Below, one piece after another: positions 3,854 to 41,607 of a stretch of 60,914 nt of DNA. The notes beneath the pieces were generated by a model. That model was not told the origin of the DNA. It was given only the letters and a program-made list of their open reading frames with translations, and ran no database searches. The stretch's first letter is position 1. Each line of letters starts with the position of its first letter. Origin of the DNA: a bacterium. Lineage in GTDB: Bacteria > ARS69. The translations under genes were made by a program, and so were the position numbers. Location: contig JALGZR010000041.1 in NCBI GenBank assembly GCA_025774805.1, positions 1-60,914 of the forward strand, given 5' to 3'.

Positions 3854-4232
3854 TCCCTACCGAGAGATGCATGGCCAAGACTGGTTCCAGCAACGACTTA
3901 GGACTGATCTCGACTGTGAGGCCCGGGAGGGGAAGAAGCCGGCGACATCGGAGCACGCTCCAGAGCAGGTTGTCTGCAGGGTCCGGGAGGTGGAGAACTC
4001 GATCTCGCGCCCGGAGGGTCCCAGGACCCCGGGGATTCAAGCCAAGAGAGAACGTGTCTAAAGTTCCTCCTGGAGAATGGCCTCCATCGTCTCTCGGATC
4101 CGACCCCGGATCGTAAGAGCACCATGAAAGCGCGGGCCAGGCCACACACATCAATTTCCCTACGGTCTCGTCGAATTGAGGTACAATCCCAGCGGACGGT
4201 TGCCTGCGGCAATCGTAGACGCGAGATTCGTC
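3854..4232. other. Non-coding gap between divergent operons
   Basis: About 380 bp separate the leftward operon of small exported proteins from the rightward PDZ-barrel operon. It should hold both promoters. I see no open frame with a plausible signal, no RNA gene and no clear hairpin. An in-frame TTG at 4176 could extend the rightward gene by 19 residues but has no ribosome-binding site. Confidence 0.4.
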
Positions 4233-6476
4233 GTGACCAAGGTCTCCGGCAGCTCTCTCCGGATACGGGCTTGGCTCACCTTCTGCCTTGCGGCAGGTGT
4301 TTCGTCGGGTCCCTTCCCGCTTACCCCGGCACGCGCCGAGGCCTCGCAACCGTACCTCGGCCTCTTGGTCTCTCGTGTATCCATCACGCAGAGAATCGCC
4401 GCCGGGATGAGTTCCACGGACCCGGGAGTGCAGGTCGCTGGCGTGGATCCGGGATCTCCCGCGGACCGGGCTCGAGTCAAACGCACCGACATCGTTCTCC
4501 GAGCCAACGGGCAGATGATCCGCTCTCCCGAGGATCTCGATGCCGAGCTTGCCATGTTCGAGCCCGGGCAGAAGATTCGTCTTCTTCTGCGACGCGGTGA
4601 GGAGCAGCGGGAACTCGCCCTTCAGGTGGCCGAGGTCCCTGGGGGCTACCTCGGCTTCGCGGTTCGTCCTCTCTCCGAGCTCGAATCGCTCGATGTGGGG
4701 CTGCCTCCGGATCTCACGTCCGGCGGTGATCCCGCCGTCGTGAGCTGGGTGCAGCAGGATACTCCTCTGTCGCGCGTGCGGGGATTCGGCGAGAACGCCG
4801 TGATCATCGCGCTCAACGGTGAGCCCGTTCGTTGGGTGGAGGACTTTCGTCGCAAAGCCGACGAGGTCCGGCTCGGGGACGAGATCCTGATCCGCTACTA
4901 CCGAGAGGGACGCTATCGAGATCTCTCCATCGTGGCGCAGGCCCCACCCCGATGGTGGTCCGGGCTGCGCCTCGAGGAGCTTTCACCACTTCTCATCGAC
5001 ACTGAGTCCCTGTCCCCCGCGGAGGTCGAGGAGGGGGGGCTCTTCGTGCGGCGAGTCGAGGCGGACTCCCCCGGTGAGAAAGCCGGCTTGCGACGGGGAG
5101 ATCGGATCGTGGCTCTGGACGGAGCTGCGGTCTCCCGGCTCGACGAGTTCGAGCAGAAGTACGCCGCACTCGCCCACGGAGTGAGCGTTCCGCTGGGAGT
5201 GCGACGATCCGGCGGATCCCGCGAGACACTGATACTTCAGCGGGGGGCCCAGCTCGGCGCAACGAGGGAGAGACCCGAGACGGTGACGCCCTTCTCCTTT
5301 GCGCTCACACCGAGGCGATCACGGGGAGGCCGCCTCTGGGTGGCCCCTTTGGATGGTCCCACGATGCGCATTGGCCAGGTTCCCTTTCTCCTCCCCATCC
5401 CCTTGATCTGGACGAAGGTGACCGGACCTGTGTTCACCGGTCGAACGAGTTTTCACTGGGCGAGCGGAGAGTACGCGGCGGGGAGCGTCGTCGCTTCACC
5501 ACGGGCCGGCTCTATCGCGACGGTCAGCTGGGACTACTCCTACGGCACGTCCGACGCACGCTGGTACCACTCGGCAAACCTCGATCTGCGGGCCCCGGGG
5601 CTTCCTTCAGTGTCGTACGTAGACCGGCCGCGACCCTTCCATCGTGAGCAGATCTCGAATCTTCCGGAGACGTGGTTCCTGTCCGCGTTCTTCGGTGAGG
5701 ATCTGCTCCGCTACGTGGACATTCAAGGGTGGGCGGTCACCTGGGAGGCAATGGACCGACCGTCTCCGGGCCACGACGTGGCACTGGGATTCGAATTCTA
5801 TCGCGAGGAGCCCGTGGAGAACTCCTCCACGAAGAGCCTGTTCGGAAGGCGCGCTTTCTCGCAGAACCCATTCGACGAGATCGATGCCGGGCGCTCTCAC
5901 ACCGCCACGCTCACCTACTCGTTTGACAGAATCTGCTGGCGGTCATGGACCCGGAACCTGGTCACGGCGGAAGTCCGCGTGGCGGGAGGCGTGCTCGGCG
6001 GTGACCAGGAATTCGTCCGGTGGGAAGGGAACGCCACCCGCGCCGTGCGGCTTCTCCGGAGACTGTATGCCGACGCGCGGTTGCGCGCGGGCGCGGCCAC
6101 CGGCAGCCTGCCCTTTCAAGAGGAGTTCGCCGCCGGCGGCAAGGGAACGCTTCCCGGTTACCGGGATCACGAGTTCTCCGGCGATCGCACGGTCCTTCTG
6201 CAGTCGCGTGTCTCTTGGGTTCCCTTCGCTCAACCGGAGCAACCCGTCCAGTATCGACTCTTCGTCGGGCTCGACGCGGGCAATGCCTGGCGGGTCGACG
6301 ATGTCCCCAGCATCCCCCGCCTTCGAACGAGCTTCGCATTCGGACACGGGGTGTACATCCCGGCCAGATTCTGGATTCCCTTCCCAGTGGGCATCTCCAC
6401 ATCCTGGGCCGTCCCGCTCGACGACGATCGGGGCTGGCGGTTCCACCTCGACGTCCTGGGAGGTGCACCACGATGA
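4233..6476 (+). CDS. Triple-PDZ protein with Omp85/BamA-like C-terminal barrel
   Basis: 747 residues from GTG 4233, chosen because it gives a normal signal peptide (MTKVSGSSLRIRAWLTFCLA...PARA-EA); an in-frame TTG at 4176 is the alternative. Three PDZ-like domains follow, at about residues 40-130, 130-235 and 235-335. The best is the third (GLRRGDRIVALDGAAVSRLD). From about residue 355 the chain alternates like a beta-barrel and carries GGKGTLPGYRDHEFSGD, the RGY-type signature near the end of Omp85/surface-antigen barrels. No POTRA domain is recognised, so the PDZ domains occupy that place. It is probably an outer-membrane protein with a periplasmic peptide-binding arm. It overlaps the next gene by ATGA. 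Substrate and role are unknown. Confidence 0.75.
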   Translation: MTKVSGSSLRIRAWLTFCLAAGVSSGPFPLTPARAEASQPYLGLLVSRVSITQRIAAGMSSTDPGVQVAGVDPGSPADRARVKRTDIVLRANGQMIRSPEDLDAELAMFEPGQKIRLLLRRGEEQRELALQVAEVPGGYLGFAVRPLSELESLDVGLPPDLTSGGDPAVVSWVQQDTPLSRVRGFGENAVIIALNGEPVRWVEDFRRKADEVRLGDEILIRYYREGRYRDLSIVAQAPPRWWSGLRLEELSPLLIDTESLSPAEVEEGGLFVRRVEADSPGEKAGLRRGDRIVALDGAAVSRLDEFEQKYAALAHGVSVPLGVRRSGGSRETLILQRGAQLGATRERPETVTPFSFALTPRRSRGGRLWVAPLDGPTMRIGQVPFLLPIPLIWTKVTGPVFTGRTSFHWASGEYAAGSVVASPRAGSIATVSWDYSYGTSDARWYHSANLDLRAPGLPSVSYVDRPRPFHREQISNLPETWFLSAFFGEDLLRYVDIQGWAVTWEAMDRPSPGHDVALGFEFYREEPVENSSTKSLFGRRAFSQNPFDEIDAGRSHTATLTYSFDRICWRSWTRNLVTAEVRVAGGVLGGDQEFVRWEGNATRAVRLLRRLYADARLRAGAATGSLPFQEEFAAGGKGTLPGYRDHEFSGDRTVLLQSRVSWVPFAQPEQPVQYRLFVGLDAGNAWRVDDVPSIPRLRTSFAFGHGVYIPARFWIPFPVGISTSWAVPLDDDRGWRFHLDVLGGAPR

Positions 6477-7168
6477 GTGGACCGGGTCGCCGAGGACGGG
6501 TGGGCTATCGAGCCATCTTTCTCATCGTGGTCACGCTCGCGGTCGCGGGTCCCGTCCGGGGGCACGAACTCGATTCCCTGGACTGCCGCGTTGAGGACGG
6601 TGCGATGACGCTCGGGTTTCTCTTCCCCGTGGCCACCTTGCCGCTCGCGGAGCTGGAGAAGGTCCTCGAGGACCAGGGTCTGCTGGTCGAAGTGCGCGTA
6701 TCCATCGAGGTTCGCAAACAGGGCCGGTTCCTCAGCAGCACCTTCGTGATGACCACCAACGTCAGAACCCTTGCCTACAGTCGCTGGTACGACGAGTTCG
6801 TTCTGAACGAGAATGCGAAGGAAATCCTGACGAGTCGAAGCTACTACGGAGCCGTCGATTCCTTCCGCCGCTACGATGGTATCGAGGTCGCGGAGACGGG
6901 CATACTCGAGCCGGACGCCGACTACCGAATCATCGTGGACGTCAAGGGACGCCTCCGACTTCCGGAGGTCGGTGGGGCTGGGGAAAGCCTTTCACTCGCC
7001 GGACTGAGCCTTCCCCTGGAGCTGGCCGATCGACTGCGGAAAAAGAACGAGGTGTTCTCCATTCGTACCCAGTCGGAGAAGTTCTCGGGCCGTGACGTGC
7101 CCGCCCGGCTCTTCCTGGATATGCCGCAGTCCGGCTCGAATGAATCGCAGTCGAGGCCCCGATCGTGA
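6473..7168 (+). CDS. DUF4390-like exported protein
   Basis: 231 residues, starting at ATG 6473 inside the stop of the barrel gene, with a strong GGGAGGTG ribosome-binding site at about 6457. The signal peptide is AIFLIVVTLAVAGPVRG-HE. The mature part begins LDCRVEDGAMTLGFLFPVA and contains WYDEFVLNE. It has the general look of DUF4390 proteins, which are often encoded just before NtrY-like membrane sensor kinases. Here it precedes a HAMP-AAA-Ser/Thr kinase instead, overlapping it by GTGA. It is likely a periplasmic partner or ligand domain of that kinase. This is inference from gene order, and no enzymatic motif is visible. Confidence 0.6.
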   Translation: MSGPGRRGRVGYRAIFLIVVTLAVAGPVRGHELDSLDCRVEDGAMTLGFLFPVATLPLAELEKVLEDQGLLVEVRVSIEVRKQGRFLSSTFVMTTNVRTLAYSRWYDEFVLNENAKEILTSRSYYGAVDSFRRYDGIEVAETGILEPDADYRIIVDVKGRLRLPEVGGAGESLSLAGLSLPLELADRLRKKNEVFSIRTQSEKFSGRDVPARLFLDMPQSGSNESQSRPRS

Positions 7169-9753
7169 AGCTCCGGCTCAGGAGCCGCACCAAGTTCGAG
7201 CGGACTCTCTTCATCGGCATTCTCGTGATCGCTCTCACGGTGGCGACGGTGTCGATGCTTTCTCTCCTCATGACCCGACAGAAGTTCCAGGACTTGTTCC
7301 TGCGACTCTGGGAGTCTTCAGGCGCGAACGTGATCCGGGATGATCTCGCGTTCTTCGCTCGTCAACGCTTGGAGGACCTCGCGAAGGTGCAGGCCGAGGC
7401 AGTCGGCAGTTCGGCGAGCGGCTGCGAGTCGACCCGTCCGGAGGCAGCTCTCGACTGCATTGTGGCGGGTCTCGTCGACGGCGGCGGGATGCCGGAGGGA
7501 CTCACGCTCGACTACGTGGTCCTCTATCGCCGATCCGATGACGGGTGGGCGGTCCTCGGGCGACACGATGTCGCGGGAGGAGAGGCGGCTCCGCTCTCCG
7601 AGCATCCCGGTTCCCTTTCACCCGACGACATCGAGCAGTATCAACGCGAACGCATCCAGCCTACCCAGCGGAACGTCGGACACATCGTGAGCCTGACGTC
7701 CTGGGGGCAGAACTACCTCCTTACGGTCTCGGCCTCGACGGACAGCGTTCTCAGCGAACGATGGCGCCGTTCCCGAACCAACGTGGACCGACCGGCCTTC
7801 ACGGTCTTTTTCTCGGAGTTGATTTGGCGTCAAGGTGTCTGGCTCTTGCTGACTCTCGCGGCGATCGCCCTCCTCGCCGTCGTGGTGAGTCGGATTGTTT
7901 CGGCTCGAGTGAGCCGCCCTCTTGCGAATCTCGTGGGCACGATGGAGCGGGTCTCGGCCGGCGATCTCTCCTGCCGGGCTGAGAGCAGCTCCCAGGAGGA
8001 ATTCAGCCTCCTCGTCGCGTCCTTCAATTCGATGGTCACGAACATCGAGCAAGCCGCGGAGCATCGTCAGAAAGTCTCCCAGGAGCTTCTTCGGGATGCC
8101 ATCAAGCGCCTGGATGGTCCGCTCCTCGGCGAGAGCTCCGCGGTCCGCGATCTTCGGAAGGCGGTGGCGACCCACGCCGCGACTGACAAAACGGTCCTGC
8201 TCATCGGTGCTCCCGGTACCGGGAAGGAGGCGGTGGCTCGGGCGATTCACAGCGAATCCGAGCGAACGGAGGGAGCCTTCATCTACGTGAACTGCGCCCA
8301 GCTAACCTCCGAGAACGGCGGGTCGTTCCTCGGAACCGCCCGCGGTTACCTGGAGGAACAGGCGCGGCCCACGCCCGGGAGATTCGACCTCGCCGACGGC
8401 GGGACTCTCTATCTCGATGGCATCGATCACCTGGTCACCGCCGCGCAGTCGGAGGTTCTCACCGTGTTGAGTGCGTTCGATGCGCTGCGGTCAACGGGAG
8501 AGCAGCCCCACCCCGATGTGCGCGTGATCGCCACGTCCACGCGGGGGTCAGACGCTCCCCTCTCCGGCCGACTCGATCAAGAGCTCTACCGACACTTGCG
8601 GCGGAGACGACTCACGCTCCCCACACTCGTCGAGCGGGTGGAAGATCTCCCCGATCTGGTGGAGCATTTCGTGACGTTGTACGCCCGGCGAATCGGCAAA
8701 CCCGTGCAGCGTATCTCCGAGGAATCGATGGAGAAGCTCAAAGCCTACGAATGGCCGGGGAACATCCAGGAGCTCAGCAACGTGATCGAGCAAGCCGTCC
8801 TCACAGCTCGGGGACCCGTTGCGGAGATCAATGAGGCCGCACTGGACGAAGGGACTCCCTTGGGAAGCTACCGGCTCATCGAACGTTTAGGGGCGGGAGG
8901 CATGGGCGAGGTTTGGCGAGCCAAGCACCGGCTTCTGGCCAGGCTCGCTGCGGTGAAGCTCATCCGCGCGAGCGCGTTGGAGCATGCCGGAGATGACCAC
9001 CGTCTGCTCGAGCGCTTCCAGCGCGAGGCCGTGGCTACAGCAAACCTGAGGTCCCCGCACACCGTGCAGTTATTCGATTTCGGGATCAGCGCAACCGGTT
9101 CCTTTTACTACGTGATGGAACTCCTCGAGGGAATGGATCTCCAGACGATGGTGAAGCGATTCGGACCGCTCCCGTCAGAGAGGGTTGTCTCGTTTCTGCG
9201 TCAGGCCTGCCGTTCGTTGATCGAGGCACACGACGCCGGTCTTGTTCATCGGGACATCAAGCCTGCCAATCTGTATGTGTGCAGACTCGGGCCGGAAGTC
9301 GACTTCTTGAAAGTGCTGGATTTCGGCATGGTCAAGGCGATGGCGGCCGGCGACCAGACGCAACTCACGACGGAAGGAACCGCGCAAGGGACTCCGGCAT
9401 TCATGTCACCGGAGATGGCTCTCGGAGAATCGGAGGCGGATGGGCGGGTGGACATCTATTCGCTCGGGTGCGTCGCGTATTGGCTTCTCACGGGATCGCT
9501 GGTGTTTGAGGCCAATAGTGTCAGCCAGATGATGATGGATCACATCCAGACTCCACCGGTGCCACCATCACAAAGAGCAGAGCAGGAGATCCCCGAATCC
9601 CTTGAACGAATCGTCCTGTCCTGCCTCGAGAAGTCCAAGGAGGAGCGTCCACCGACAGCCTTGATTCTCTGGGAATCGCTCGGCTCGGTCGAGTTCCGGT
9701 CCCCCTGGACTCAGGAGCGGGCCGAGCATTGGTGGATGGTCCACAGAGGCTGA
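7165..9753 (+). CDS. Membrane HAMP - sigma54-activator-like AAA+ - Ser/Thr protein kinase fusion
   Basis: 862 residues from GTG 7165. Order: TM helix (about 15-37), extracytoplasmic domain (40-220), TM helix (222-247), HAMP (248-300), NtrC-like AAA+ domain (320-545), Ser/Thr kinase (565-840). The AAA+ part keeps Walker A GAPGTGKE (348-355), Walker B GGTLYLDGID (412-421) and WPGNIQEL. The sigma54-contacting GAFTGA loop is replaced by GYLEEQ, and no DNA-binding helix-turn-helix follows. The kinase is complete: GAGGMGEV (576-583), Lys598, HRDIKPAN (695-702), DFG (720-722). The protein should therefore sense through the membrane, perhaps oligomerise with ATP, and phosphorylate proteins. It is coupled to the DUF4390-like and PDZ-barrel genes. 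I know of no standard family with this architecture. Confidence 0.85.
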   Translation: MKLRLRSRTKFERTLFIGILVIALTVATVSMLSLLMTRQKFQDLFLRLWESSGANVIRDDLAFFARQRLEDLAKVQAEAVGSSASGCESTRPEAALDCIVAGLVDGGGMPEGLTLDYVVLYRRSDDGWAVLGRHDVAGGEAAPLSEHPGSLSPDDIEQYQRERIQPTQRNVGHIVSLTSWGQNYLLTVSASTDSVLSERWRRSRTNVDRPAFTVFFSELIWRQGVWLLLTLAAIALLAVVVSRIVSARVSRPLANLVGTMERVSAGDLSCRAESSSQEEFSLLVASFNSMVTNIEQAAEHRQKVSQELLRDAIKRLDGPLLGESSAVRDLRKAVATHAATDKTVLLIGAPGTGKEAVARAIHSESERTEGAFIYVNCAQLTSENGGSFLGTARGYLEEQARPTPGRFDLADGGTLYLDGIDHLVTAAQSEVLTVLSAFDALRSTGEQPHPDVRVIATSTRGSDAPLSGRLDQELYRHLRRRRLTLPTLVERVEDLPDLVEHFVTLYARRIGKPVQRISEESMEKLKAYEWPGNIQELSNVIEQAVLTARGPVAEINEAALDEGTPLGSYRLIERLGAGGMGEVWRAKHRLLARLAAVKLIRASALEHAGDDHRLLERFQREAVATANLRSPHTVQLFDFGISATGSFYYVMELLEGMDLQTMVKRFGPLPSERVVSFLRQACRSLIEAHDAGLVHRDIKPANLYVCRLGPEVDFLKVLDFGMVKAMAAGDQTQLTTEGTAQGTPAFMSPEMALGESEADGRVDIYSLGCVAYWLLTGSLVFEANSVSQMMMDHIQTPPVPPSQRAEQEIPESLERIVLSCLEKSKEERPPTALILWESLGSVEFRSPWTQERAEHWWMVHRG

Positions 9754-36877: not shown

Positions 36878-39235
36878 ATGGACAAGATCATCGACTGGCC
36901 CGAGGGTGACGTTTTCCACGAGGTGCCGCTGCTGCTCCTGAGGAGCACGGTGCTCTTTCCTCTCCAGGTCGCGTCGGTGCAGATCGCGACCAAGGCGAAC
37001 CTCCGGCTCCTGGAGGACCACGCCGACCCCCGAGCGATCGTCGGAGCCGGGGTGTTGGTGGACCCGGACGGGCCCGCCAACCGGCGCAATCTCGGCCCGA
37101 TCGCCGTGGCCTGCCGGATTCTGAACCGAATCGACATGGGCGGGGGCTCGGCCCAGGTCGTGTTGCAGGGGCTGCGGCGCATCCGGATCCGGGAAGTTGT
37201 CAGATCCCGACCCTACCTGCGGACCCGGGCCGAGGGGCTCGACGAGTCCGAAGGAGACCGTCCCGTGGGGCGGGAGCGCGTCACCCGGGTGGTCCGGCTG
37301 GTCCGGACCCTGGTCGAGACCGACGATCGCTACCCGGACGAGCTGGCCAAGGTGGTCGAGATGAACCACGAGAACGGATCCCGGTGCGCCGATCTCGTGG
37401 CCGATCTGATTCAGTTCGGATACGTGGAGAAGAGACAGCTCCTCGAGACCGAGGACGTCTCGGTGCGACTCGACCGGTTGGCGGAACTCGTCCAACGGGA
37501 GATCGCCCGCTCCAAGGTCGCCCGGGAGGTCCAGACGAAGACGGCGATCTCGATCGACCGCACCCGGCGGGAGTCTTTGCTTCGGGAGCAGCTCGAAATC
37601 ATCCGCCGCGAGCTGGAAGAGCTGGACCCGGCCGAGGCCGAGATCGCGGAGCTGGCCCGGAAGACGGAGGCGGCCCCCCTGCCGCCGATCGTGGCCGAAG
37701 AGGCGCGGCGCGAGGTGCAAAGGCTCCGCCACGGCCCCACCCGCCATCACGAGGGGTTCTCGATTCGCGCCTACGTCGACTGGGTCCTCTCGATGCCGTG
37801 GGAGGCGACGACGAAGGATCGACTCGATCTGCGGCGGGCACGAAGAATGGTGGACAAGCGCTATCTCGGTCTCGGGACGGCGAGGGACCGCCTCTTGGAG
37901 TTTCTCGCCGTCCGCAAGCTCGGGGGAAACGCGCGTCTTCCCCTTCTCGTCATTCTGGGACCGTCGGGGACCGGCCGGACGAGTCTCGCGAGCACGGTCG
38001 CCGAGGTGCTGGGCCGACGCTTCGTGCGCATCCCCATGCAGGGAATCCACGACGCGGCGGAGATCCGGGGGCATCGCCGTACCGCGGCCGCGGCGCGACC
38101 GGGGCGCGTTCTCGACGGCCTGCGCACGGCCGGCGTGCGGAATCCGGTCATCCTGATCGACCACCTCGATCGGCTCGAGGCCCGCATCGGCGAGCCGATG
38201 CATTCGCTGGTCGACGCGCTCCATCCCGAGCGCAACGGCCAGTTCCTCGATCACTACCTGGGAGTGCCGTTCGATCTGTCGGAGGTGCTGTTCGTCGTGA
38301 CGGCGAACGTGGAGGAGGAGATTCCCCGCGACCTCTGGTCCTTCATGCACACCATCGAGATGCCGGGATACACGGAGCCCGTCAAGCGGGCCATCGTGCG
38401 CGAGAGCCTGTGGCCCGAGCTCGTCGAGGGGCACGGCATCTCCCGGTTCGACGTTCGACTGACGAACACCGCCGTCACGCGGATCATCCGTCACTACACG
38501 AGGGAGGCCGGAGTCCGTGAGCTCAGGCTCCATCTCCGGACGATCTGCCGGCGGATCGCGGTTCAAGTGGCGGTGCGGGGGGGGCGCCGTCTGTCGATCG
38601 GAGTCCGAAACCTCGAGGAGTATCTGGGCAAGCCGCTCTATGTCGAAGACCCCACGGCGCGCGAGCCGAAGGTCGGCGCCGCGACCGGCCTGGCCTGGAC
38701 CGAGGCGGGAGGGGTGCTGCTTCCGATCGAGGCCCTGATCATGCCGGGGGAGGGATACGTGATGGTCACCGGGATGCTCGGTGAGGTCATGGAGGAGTCG
38801 GTGGAGGCCGCGCTCTCCTACGTGCGCTCGCGGGGCGCGGAACTGAAGATCCCGGCGGACACCCTCTACGAGAGGGACCTGCACATCCACTTCCCCGAGG
38901 GGGCGATCCCGAAGGACGGCCCCTCGGCGGGCATCGCCGCCGCCACCACGATCGCGTCGCTGCTCTCGGGCCGCCCCGTGCGTCACGACATCGCCATGAC
39001 CGGCGAGATCTCGCTGCAGGGCTGGGTGCTGCCGGTGGGCGGAATCCGCGAAAAGGTCCTCGCGGCGTACCGGGCCGGCATCAAACGCGTCATCCTTCCG
39101 AAGGGCAACGAGAGCGATCTCGACGACGTGCCCCGAGACGTCCGCGGGAAGATGCGGTTCGATCTGGTGGGGGACGTCGGCGAAGTCTTCGGCATCGCGC
39201 TGAAGAAGAAACCGGTGAGCCGGCCCGGGAAGTAG
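36878..39235 (+). CDS. Lon-family protease with degenerate ATPase motifs and intact Ser-Lys dyad
   Basis: 785 residues, the size of bacterial Lon. N-terminal LonN domain (PLLLLRSTVLFPLQVASVQI), coiled-coil arm (about 205-260), AAA+ region (350-560) and Lon protease domain (595-775). In the AAA+ part, Walker A is GPSGTGRTS with Arg367 for the essential Lys. Walker B is ILIDHLD (425-431) with His429 for Glu. The LRDRM arginine-finger segment is LWSFM (486-490). Sensor-1 Asn in VTANVE and the GVREL sensor-2 remain. The protease part keeps Ser683 (PKDGPSAG) and Lys726 (GGIREKVLAA). It should bind and cut peptides but probably cannot unfold substrates using ATP. It lies 8 bp before polB, in one transcript. 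Confidence 0.88.
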   Translation: MDKIIDWPEGDVFHEVPLLLLRSTVLFPLQVASVQIATKANLRLLEDHADPRAIVGAGVLVDPDGPANRRNLGPIAVACRILNRIDMGGGSAQVVLQGLRRIRIREVVRSRPYLRTRAEGLDESEGDRPVGRERVTRVVRLVRTLVETDDRYPDELAKVVEMNHENGSRCADLVADLIQFGYVEKRQLLETEDVSVRLDRLAELVQREIARSKVAREVQTKTAISIDRTRRESLLREQLEIIRRELEELDPAEAEIAELARKTEAAPLPPIVAEEARREVQRLRHGPTRHHEGFSIRAYVDWVLSMPWEATTKDRLDLRRARRMVDKRYLGLGTARDRLLEFLAVRKLGGNARLPLLVILGPSGTGRTSLASTVAEVLGRRFVRIPMQGIHDAAEIRGHRRTAAAARPGRVLDGLRTAGVRNPVILIDHLDRLEARIGEPMHSLVDALHPERNGQFLDHYLGVPFDLSEVLFVVTANVEEEIPRDLWSFMHTIEMPGYTEPVKRAIVRESLWPELVEGHGISRFDVRLTNTAVTRIIRHYTREAGVRELRLHLRTICRRIAVQVAVRGGRRLSIGVRNLEEYLGKPLYVEDPTAREPKVGAATGLAWTEAGGVLLPIEALIMPGEGYVMVTGMLGEVMEESVEAALSYVRSRGAELKIPADTLYERDLHIHFPEGAIPKDGPSAGIAAATTIASLLSGRPVRHDIAMTGEISLQGWVLPVGGIREKVLAAYRAGIKRVILPKGNESDLDDVPRDVRGKMRFDLVGDVGEVFGIALKKKPVSRPGK

Positions 39236-39243
39236 GATGCGCC

Positions 39244-41607
39244 GTGCCGATCGGATTCGTGCTCCAGCCCACCTACCGTATCGAGTCCGGACGCCCCGTC
39301 GTGCACCTCTGGGGGAAGCTCGAGGACGGGCGCTCGTTCCTGGTGCGCGACCGGCGGCAGGTGCCCCGTTTCTGGATCCGGAGCCGGGACGCGGAGGCGG
39401 CCCGAGAGCGGGGCGCGCGAATCGCTCCCGACGACCGGGAACGGGTCGACATGTCCGGGAATCCGGTCGTGCCGGTCGAGGTCGACGTTCCGCCCGATGT
39501 TCCGCCGGTTCGCGAGCGGCTGTCCGCCGCGGGAATCCCGACCTTCGAGGCGGACGTCCGCTTCGCGATCCGCTACCTCGTCGACCGGGGGGTTCGGGGC
39601 TCCTGCGAGATCGTGGGGGAGGAGCGGCCGGGCGAGGGGGTCGACGTCGTCTTCGAAGATCCCGAAGTGCGCGCTGCCGGCGGGACGCTGCGGCTTTCGG
39701 TTCTCTCGATCGACATCGAGACCGATCCGCGGGCGGAGCGACTGCTCTCGGTTGCGCTCGTGGGCGGCGGAGCGGACGAGGTGCTTCTCCTCGCGCCGCC
39801 CGACGAAGCCCCCCCGGAGGGATCGGTCGCCTGCGGTTCGGAGCGCGAGCTCCTGCAGCGCTTCGTGCAACGGGTCCGGGAGATCGACCCGGACGTTCTC
39901 ACCGGATGGAACCTGGTCGACTTCGACCTGACCGTGCTGGCCGACCTCGCGACGCGTCGTGGGGTCCGCCTCGCGATCGGACGCGGTCGGGAGCCGTTGC
40001 GCCTCCGGCCGTCCTCGTCGCCCCGCGTGCAACGGGAGGCTCAGGTTCCGGGCCGCGTCGTGCTCGACGGGATCGAGCTCGTGCGCGGAGCGTTTCTCCG
40101 GTACGAGAGCTTCTCCCTCGACTCCGTCTCCCGGGAGGTCCTCGGAGAGGCGAAGACGATGACCGGTCCCGGCCGGGCCGACGCGATCTTCGAGGCCTGG
40201 CGAACCGATCGCGCGCGATTCGTCGAATACAACCGGAACGACGCCCGGCTCGTCCTCGGCATTCTGGAGAAGCTCCGGCTCGTGGAGCTGGCCGTCGAGC
40301 GCAGCCTCCTGACCGGGCTCCCGCCGAACCGCGTGGCGGCGAGCGTCGCCTCGTTCGATTTCCTGTACCTGACCGAGCTCGGGAAGCGGGGCGTCGTGGC
40401 GCCGACCGCGGGAGAACCGGATCGCCCGATGCCGCAGACCGGCGGCACCGTGTTCGAACCGGAGTCGGGTCTCCACGAGAACGTGGTCGTTCTCGACTTC
40501 AAGAGCCTGTACCCGAGCATCATCCGCACGTTCAACATCGATCCGTGGGGACGCGCGCGCGAAGGGAGCGCCCGATCCGATGCGGTGCCGGAGGCCGACC
40601 CCGCCGTCGCCCCGGACGCCGAATCCGATCCGGTGGTCGCTCCGAACGGGGTCCGGTTCCGGCGCGAGCCGGGAATCCTGCCCGGCATCCTCGACGAGCT
40701 GTTCCCTCGGCGGGAGAAGGCGAAGTCGGGGGGCGACGACGTGGCGAGCCAGGCGATCAAGATCCTGATGAACTCGTTCTACGGCGTACTTGGTACGCCC
40801 GCCTGTCGTTTCGCGTCCCCCGATCTCGCGAACGCGATCACCGGCTTCGGGCGGACCCTCCTGGTCTGGTCCCGGGACCGGCTCGAGGCGAAGGGCTTTC
40901 GGGTGCTCTACGGCGACACGGACAGCCTCTTCGTGGATTCGGCGGCCGCGACCGCCGAGGAGGCGCGGCGGATCGGCGCACGGCTCGTCGCGGAGCTGAA
41001 CCGGGAGCTCGCCGTGCACGTGCGCGACACCTGGAGAGTGGAGAGCCGGCTGGAGCTCGAGTTCGAGACGCTGTACCGGAAGCTCCTGCTGCCCGAGATG
41101 CGGCACGGTGCCGGCGGCGCCCGGAAGCGGTACGCCGGGCTCGCGCAGATCGGCTCCGAATCGGTCGTCGTGTTCACGGGAATGGAGGTCGTGCGCCGCG
41201 ACTGGACAGAGCTCGCGAAGAGCGTGCAGCGGGAGCTCTATACCCGCCTGTTCACCGACCGGCCGGTGGAGGAGTACCTGCGGGACGTGGTCGCCCGCGT
41301 GCGTGCGGGCGAGCTGGACGATCTCCTCGTCTACCGCAAGGGGCTCCGCAAGAGACTGGAGGCCTACACCGCCTCGACACCGCCGCACGTCGCGGCCGCC
41401 CGCAAGATGAAGGGAAAACCCGGCTCCCTGATCGAGTACGTCATCACCGCGGACGGTCCCGAGCCGGTCGCGGAGCGAACGTCTCCGATCGATCGGGAGC
41501 ACTACGTCCAGAAGCAGGTGCGGCCGGTGGCGGAACCCGTCATCGCGATCCTCGAGCTGGACTTCGACGTGATCGTGGGGGACGATCGGCAGCTCGATCT
41601 GTTCTGA
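39244..41607 (+). CDS. polB: DNA polymerase II, family B
   Basis: 787 residues from GTG 39244, nearly the same length as E. coli Pol II (783). The 3'-5' exonuclease is intact: SIDIETDP (ExoI), TGWNLVDFDL (ExoII), YNRNDARL (ExoIII). Polymerase motifs: DFKSLYPSII (A), KILMNSFYGVLG (B), YGDTDSLF (C). The chain ends RQLDLF, a good sliding-clamp-binding motif of the QLxLF type at the very C-terminus. It is a replicative-restart or translesion DNA polymerase, induced by SOS in E. coli; no LexA site is obvious here. It follows the Lon-like gene by 8 bp with TAGGATG as a ribosome site, so both are probably made together. Confidence 0.95.
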   Translation: MPIGFVLQPTYRIESGRPVVHLWGKLEDGRSFLVRDRRQVPRFWIRSRDAEAARERGARIAPDDRERVDMSGNPVVPVEVDVPPDVPPVRERLSAAGIPTFEADVRFAIRYLVDRGVRGSCEIVGEERPGEGVDVVFEDPEVRAAGGTLRLSVLSIDIETDPRAERLLSVALVGGGADEVLLLAPPDEAPPEGSVACGSERELLQRFVQRVREIDPDVLTGWNLVDFDLTVLADLATRRGVRLAIGRGREPLRLRPSSSPRVQREAQVPGRVVLDGIELVRGAFLRYESFSLDSVSREVLGEAKTMTGPGRADAIFEAWRTDRARFVEYNRNDARLVLGILEKLRLVELAVERSLLTGLPPNRVAASVASFDFLYLTELGKRGVVAPTAGEPDRPMPQTGGTVFEPESGLHENVVVLDFKSLYPSIIRTFNIDPWGRAREGSARSDAVPEADPAVAPDAESDPVVAPNGVRFRREPGILPGILDELFPRREKAKSGGDDVASQAIKILMNSFYGVLGTPACRFASPDLANAITGFGRTLLVWSRDRLEAKGFRVLYGDTDSLFVDSAAATAEEARRIGARLVAELNRELAVHVRDTWRVESRLELEFETLYRKLLLPEMRHGAGGARKRYAGLAQIGSESVVVFTGMEVVRRDWTELAKSVQRELYTRLFTDRPVEEYLRDVVARVRAGELDDLLVYRKGLRKRLEAYTASTPPHVAAARKMKGKPGSLIEYVITADGPEPVAERTSPIDREHYVQKQVRPVAEPVIAILELDFDVIVGDDRQLDLF

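Follow-up and report, generated by a model that had tools for sequence, protein, structure and literature searches.

One open reading frame in the window (the whole 60,914-nucleotide stretch of DNA analysed here) encodes a LonA paralogue with a degenerate AAA+ ATPase and an intact protease centre, which is under purifying selection and coexists with a separate canonical LonA in the same genome. We put a probability of roughly 55% on the reading that this protein has given up the unfolding and translocation driven by ATP hydrolysis while its Ser-Lys protease would still work, likely as a hexamer with a static AAA+ gate that cuts peptides or unfolded chains without ATP hydrolysis, a reading that leans on analogy with characterised Lons.

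The frame is open over its whole length and its stop codon lies within the coordinates given in Table 1. The product scores 678.5 bits against the curated model TIGR00763, above its cut-off of 608.05, and matches PF02190, PF00004, PF22667 and PF05362, all above the Pfam cut-offs, so that an N-domain, AAA+ module, lid and S16 protease domain are read in a single chain. Solved LonA chains (e.g. 6u5z, 7p6u) align to it end to end and, together with the TIGR00763 match, bear out the full-length frame of 785 residues reported in the original prediction. Published LonA criteria (PMC9569914) comprise a proline before the catalytic serine, 42 residues between this serine and the catalytic lysine, and 60 residues between the Walker A lysine position and the Walker B aspartate; the window protein displays Pro682-Ser683, 42 residues from Ser683 to Lys726 and 60 from R367 to D428, and is on these sequence criteria a LonA paralogue. 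It shares with LonA (TIGR00763; E. coli and mitochondrial Lon) the domain order, the type of protease centre, these spacings and a whole-length alignment at ~38–40% identity, but the set typical of a canonical ATP-dependent LonA (Walker A Lys, Walker B Glu, Arg finger) reads R367, H429 and F489, and the pore-loop Tyr is replaced as well. The LonBA protein of Bacillus subtilis (PMC9569914) likewise has an A-type protease centre, but differs in its 82 residues between Walker Lys and Asp (60 in the window protein), its membrane-type N-terminal part where the window protein has a LonA N-domain, and its ATPase. Membership in LonC was rejected given the PF02190 match at residues 15–207, the proline at 682 before the serine, and the lack of any insertion after Lys726 in the alignment to LonA chains.

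Table 1. Features of the degenerate LonA gene, with coordinates in the window
Feature	Coordinates	Strand	Basis
LonA paralogue, degenerate AAA+ ATPase and intact protease centre, 785 aa	36878..39235	+	Frame, profile and Pfam matches, LonA chain alignment
N-terminal substrate-binding domain (LON_substr_bdg, residues 15-207), kept	36920..37498	+	Pfam PF02190
Walker A GPSGTGRTS, Lys to Arg367 (codon 37976-37978)	37958..37984	+	Alignment; common to all four orthologues
Pore-loop 1 segment TAAAARPG, canonical Tyr to Ala403	38081..38104	+	Alignment; Tyr absent in 4/4 orthologues
Walker B VILIDHLD, Asp428 kept, Glu to His429 (codon 38162-38164)	38147..38170	+	Alignment; His only in window and G004
Sensor-1 Asn477, kept	38306..38308	+	Alignment
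Arg-finger segment LWSFM, finger Arg to Phe489	38333..38347	+	Alignment; Arg absent in 4/4 orthologues (F, F, V, L)
Sensor-2 Arg547, kept	38516..38518	+	Alignment
Lon_C protease domain (residues 574-776), intact; Ser683 (38924-38926), Lys726 (39053-39055)	38597..39205	+	Pfam and alignment

The original prediction had described the loss of the Walker A lysine, the Walker B glutamate and the arginine finger next to an intact Ser683/Lys726 centre with its surrounding protease motifs, and each of these points held when the protein was aligned to canonical LonAs, which carry the expected ATPase residues at the same columns and nearly all of whose conserved protease positions are kept. Beyond these losses, the pore-loop-1 tyrosine is missing and the region of pore loop 2 is shortened by one residue; in human LONP1, the corresponding tyrosine grips the substrate, and mutating it slows casein degradation (PMC8163871). 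It is conceivable that the window protein is still a slow ATPase and an ATP-dependent protease in which Arg367 stands in for the lysine and other residues for the glutamate and the finger, as the sensor-1, sensor-2 and Walker B Asp residues are kept and two orthologues (G060 and G139, see below) retain the Walker B glutamate. We consider this improbable, however, given that the glutamate, the finger arginine and the pore-loop tyrosine are missing as well, and that the identical Lys-to-Arg change in human Lon, the laboratory mutant K529R, reportedly leaves ATP binding in place and abolishes hydrolysis (PMC5998145), even though this mutant is an engineered single change with Walker B and finger intact.

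Four orthologues of this type were identified in two phyla, including the window protein itself, to which the three relatives are 64–76% identical. The gene of G004, a genome from another genus of the window's family, is split across two contigs (64% and 74% identical to the window Lon) and displays the motifs GPPGTGRTS, LIDHID and LLPFV. The second, from a Candidatus Krumholzibacteriia MAG (G060, locus L044, JAOTUR010000029.1), reads GPPGTGRTS, LIDEID and LWDVL, and the third, from the same phylum (G139), GPPGTGRTS, LIDEID and LLDLM. The Lys-to-Arg replacement and the losses of the arginine finger and of the pore-loop-1 tyrosine are thus common to all four, while the Walker B Glu-to-His change is limited to the window's phylum (five genomes sampled), so that decay proceeded in steps and not all at once. 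The proposal that all three ATPase determinants went together in a concerted loss is therefore accurate for the window protein, and across the clade for the lysine and the finger, but not for the glutamate, still present in two of the four orthologues. The clade of homologues with shared losses that it had anticipated does exist, and no close homologue with the normal Lys, Glu and Arg set was found. Such proteins are rare: across 386 genomes, a spacing-exact pattern for a LonA with a Walker A arginine, for which the window protein served as positive control, picked out a Lon in just two, the window genome (G000) and G004, and in 80 genomes from the G060 phylum it did so in G060 and G139 alone. 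The other matches, in G181 and G121, do not read as Lon.

A sequencing error or an isolated mutant is ruled out by these orthologues, which carry the same losses. The related notion of a decaying pseudogene or an assembly error could draw on the metagenome-like state of the assembly (284 contigs, 5% contamination), yet it is refuted by the same losses in three independent genomes, by the full-length open frame and by dN/dS values (Nei-Gojobori) of 0.12 for the G060–G139 pair and 0.23 for window–G004, which are approximate because dS is close to saturation; we regard it as having almost no chance of being right.

The strength of this selection differs between domains. Among canonical paralogues in the window's family, no domain is better conserved than the AAA+ core (86–92% identity, dN 0.05–0.09). 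In the window clade, by contrast, this core has 66–79% identity and a dN of 0.14–0.25, and it is the protease domain that is most conserved (78–82% identity), with a dN similar to that of the canonical paralogues. Taking as reference the positions invariant among 15 canonical LonAs (99 in the AAA+ core and 57 in the protease domain), 23 of the 99 are altered in all four orthologues and 52 unchanged, compared to 2 altered in all four and 53 kept in all four among the 57. Read from these substitution patterns, constraint on the AAA+ motor is relaxed without the motor being abandoned, and the protease is fully constrained. The retained sensor-1 Asn, sensor-2 Arg and Walker B Asp, along with the 52 unchanged AAA+ positions, suggest that the ring still has some role. 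Conversely, the standing of the protease domain as the most conserved part suggests that cutting is what selection maintains, which speaks against a mainly binding or chaperone protein with only incidental proteolysis; retention of the N-domain and of the overall architecture would fit such a protein, which we nonetheless judge very unlikely.

A canonical LonA is encoded elsewhere in the window genome, on contig C82 (motifs GPPGVGKTS, LLDEVD and LRDRM), so that the search for a second canonical lon suggested by the original prediction succeeded, and all 10 degenerate-Lon genomes examined carry one to three full-motif LonAs. This raises the question of whether the window protein could be a subunit of mixed hexamers, contributing protease sites and substrate binding to rings in which the canonical LonA hydrolyses ATP, and thereby tuning the rate or specificity of Lon. 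Consistent coexistence and the retention of half of the invariant AAA+ positions are compatible with such an arrangement; however, canonical Lon is widespread anyway, so that its presence in these genomes is not very informative by itself, the window genome's two Lons are only 38% identical and their genes are unlinked, and the loss of the finger and that of the pore loop would each weaken a mixed ring. We thus see mixed hexamers as a rather unlikely alternative that still deserves consideration.

Under the preferred reading of a protease uncoupled from ATP hydrolysis, the window protein would form the hexameric chamber typical of Lon, with the AAA+ ring acting as a static gate, perhaps nucleotide-binding or set by nucleotide. 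The retained N-domain may partly select substrates, namely peptides and already unfolded chains, which would diffuse in and be cut without ATP hydrolysis, powered work being left to the separate canonical LonA. The absence of ATPase activity, the hexamer, the peptidase activity and the class of substrates are all features that we infer for this protein, with human Lon K529R and LonC (MtaLonC, TTC1975) as precedents. In MtaLonC, too, a protease of the Lon type follows a degenerate AAA+-like module from which no ATP hydrolysis is expected, and it coexists with a LonA in Meiothermus taiwanensis as the window Lon does with its canonical LonA; MtaLonC assembles into hexamers, binds nucleotide, lacks ATPase activity, and without ATP degrades unfolded substrates and not folded ones (PMC3391209). 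Unlike the window protein with its LonA N-domain and Pro682, however, LonC lacks the LonA N-domain, has an aspartate before the catalytic serine and contains LonC-specific insertions, so the similar mode of working would be an analogy and not a matter of descent. The chief obstacle to this reading is that E. coli LonA cuts peptide only when ATP is present (PMC3391209), which implies that the window protease would have to be pre-activated, or else switched on by nucleotide binding or by a partner. Since Asp428, Asn477 and Arg547 are kept, nucleotide may still bind, as reported for human K529R. Hence, from the original proposal of an ATP-independent or regulatory Lon maintained by selection, selection on an intact frame and a conserved clade stand, while ATP independence is the part we infer and nucleotide is possibly bound. 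An AlphaFold prediction on four sequences (mean pLDDT 52, pTM 0.30) was unusable as a model.

The search with the window protein also recovered a locus (L012 of genome G013) from another phylum. Of 132 genomes searched in that phylum, 118 contained a match with an E-value of 1e-178 or lower, which is not a count of degenerate Lons as the lower-scoring matches include canonical LonAs and not all were read; in each of the best 20 loci, which were read, the AAA+ is degenerate and the protease centre intact. In this second group, Walker B DE is changed to ED, DD, EP, EQ or EG, the sensor-1 Asn is lost, the sensor-2 Arg is usually lost, and the Walker A Lys is mostly kept. Its loci, L076–L095 and L114 in the G013 phylum, are LonAs with an intact protease centre. 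When a profile of both groups was run against 193 genomes from many families, the loci read were all full-motif LonAs apart from those of G000, G013 and G241, the last from the same phylum as G013, with more diverged degenerate Lons possibly escaping detection. In phylogenetic trees, the four window-type proteins form one clade (100) and the second group another (99–100). Quick trees united both groups with SH-aLRT values of 99 on all columns and 91 without AAA+ columns, but in a careful tree without AAA+ columns the values for this union were 82/43; the trees are compatible with one origin or with two, and the union could reflect long-branch attraction.

Loss of ATPase activity among Lons has already been described for the LonB-like LonC, and a literature search conducted mostly outside of subscription journals found no report of a natural ATPase-dead LonA. 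We tentatively propose, at a little under even odds, that ATPase-degenerate LonAs constitute a recurring selected class found in at least three bacterial phyla, with one ancient origin or two separate ones. Members of this class would persist alongside canonical LonA, either fuel-free or in mixed rings, masked by the label of ATP-dependent Lon, the plain name that the curated TIGR00763 model gives to such proteins. A motor-less LonA whose N-domain and protease are under selection offers a natural test of the non-ATPase roles of the AAA+ ring, including gating, protease activation and assembly with partners. Elsewhere among the Lon loci, L072 (G027:C3:245500-249000) is a Lon without N-domain in which, as read by eye, an apparent response-regulator receiver stretch is inserted before Walker A.

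The genomic context of the gene is not conserved. In the window, polB (DNA polymerase II, family B; 39244-41607, + strand) starts 8 bases past the lon stop, and the two genes are probably co-transcribed; the loci of G004, G060 and G139 have other neighbours and no linkage to polB, so that context gives no function. No Rfam match was found in the window. Several other open reading frames display unusual or composite architectures. An 862-residue frame of the window (7165-9753, +) joins a HAMP domain, a sigma-54 activator AAA+ with lid and a C-terminal Ser/Thr protein kinase domain, an unusual combination, and a 766-residue frame (4176-6476, +) contains three PDZ stretches along with a weak match to a ShlB/Omp85 barrel. 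At the Krumholzibacteriia locus, a 747-residue frame (L044:10075-12318, - strand) combines Fer4_19, CDGSH, Rieske and glutamate synthase domains.
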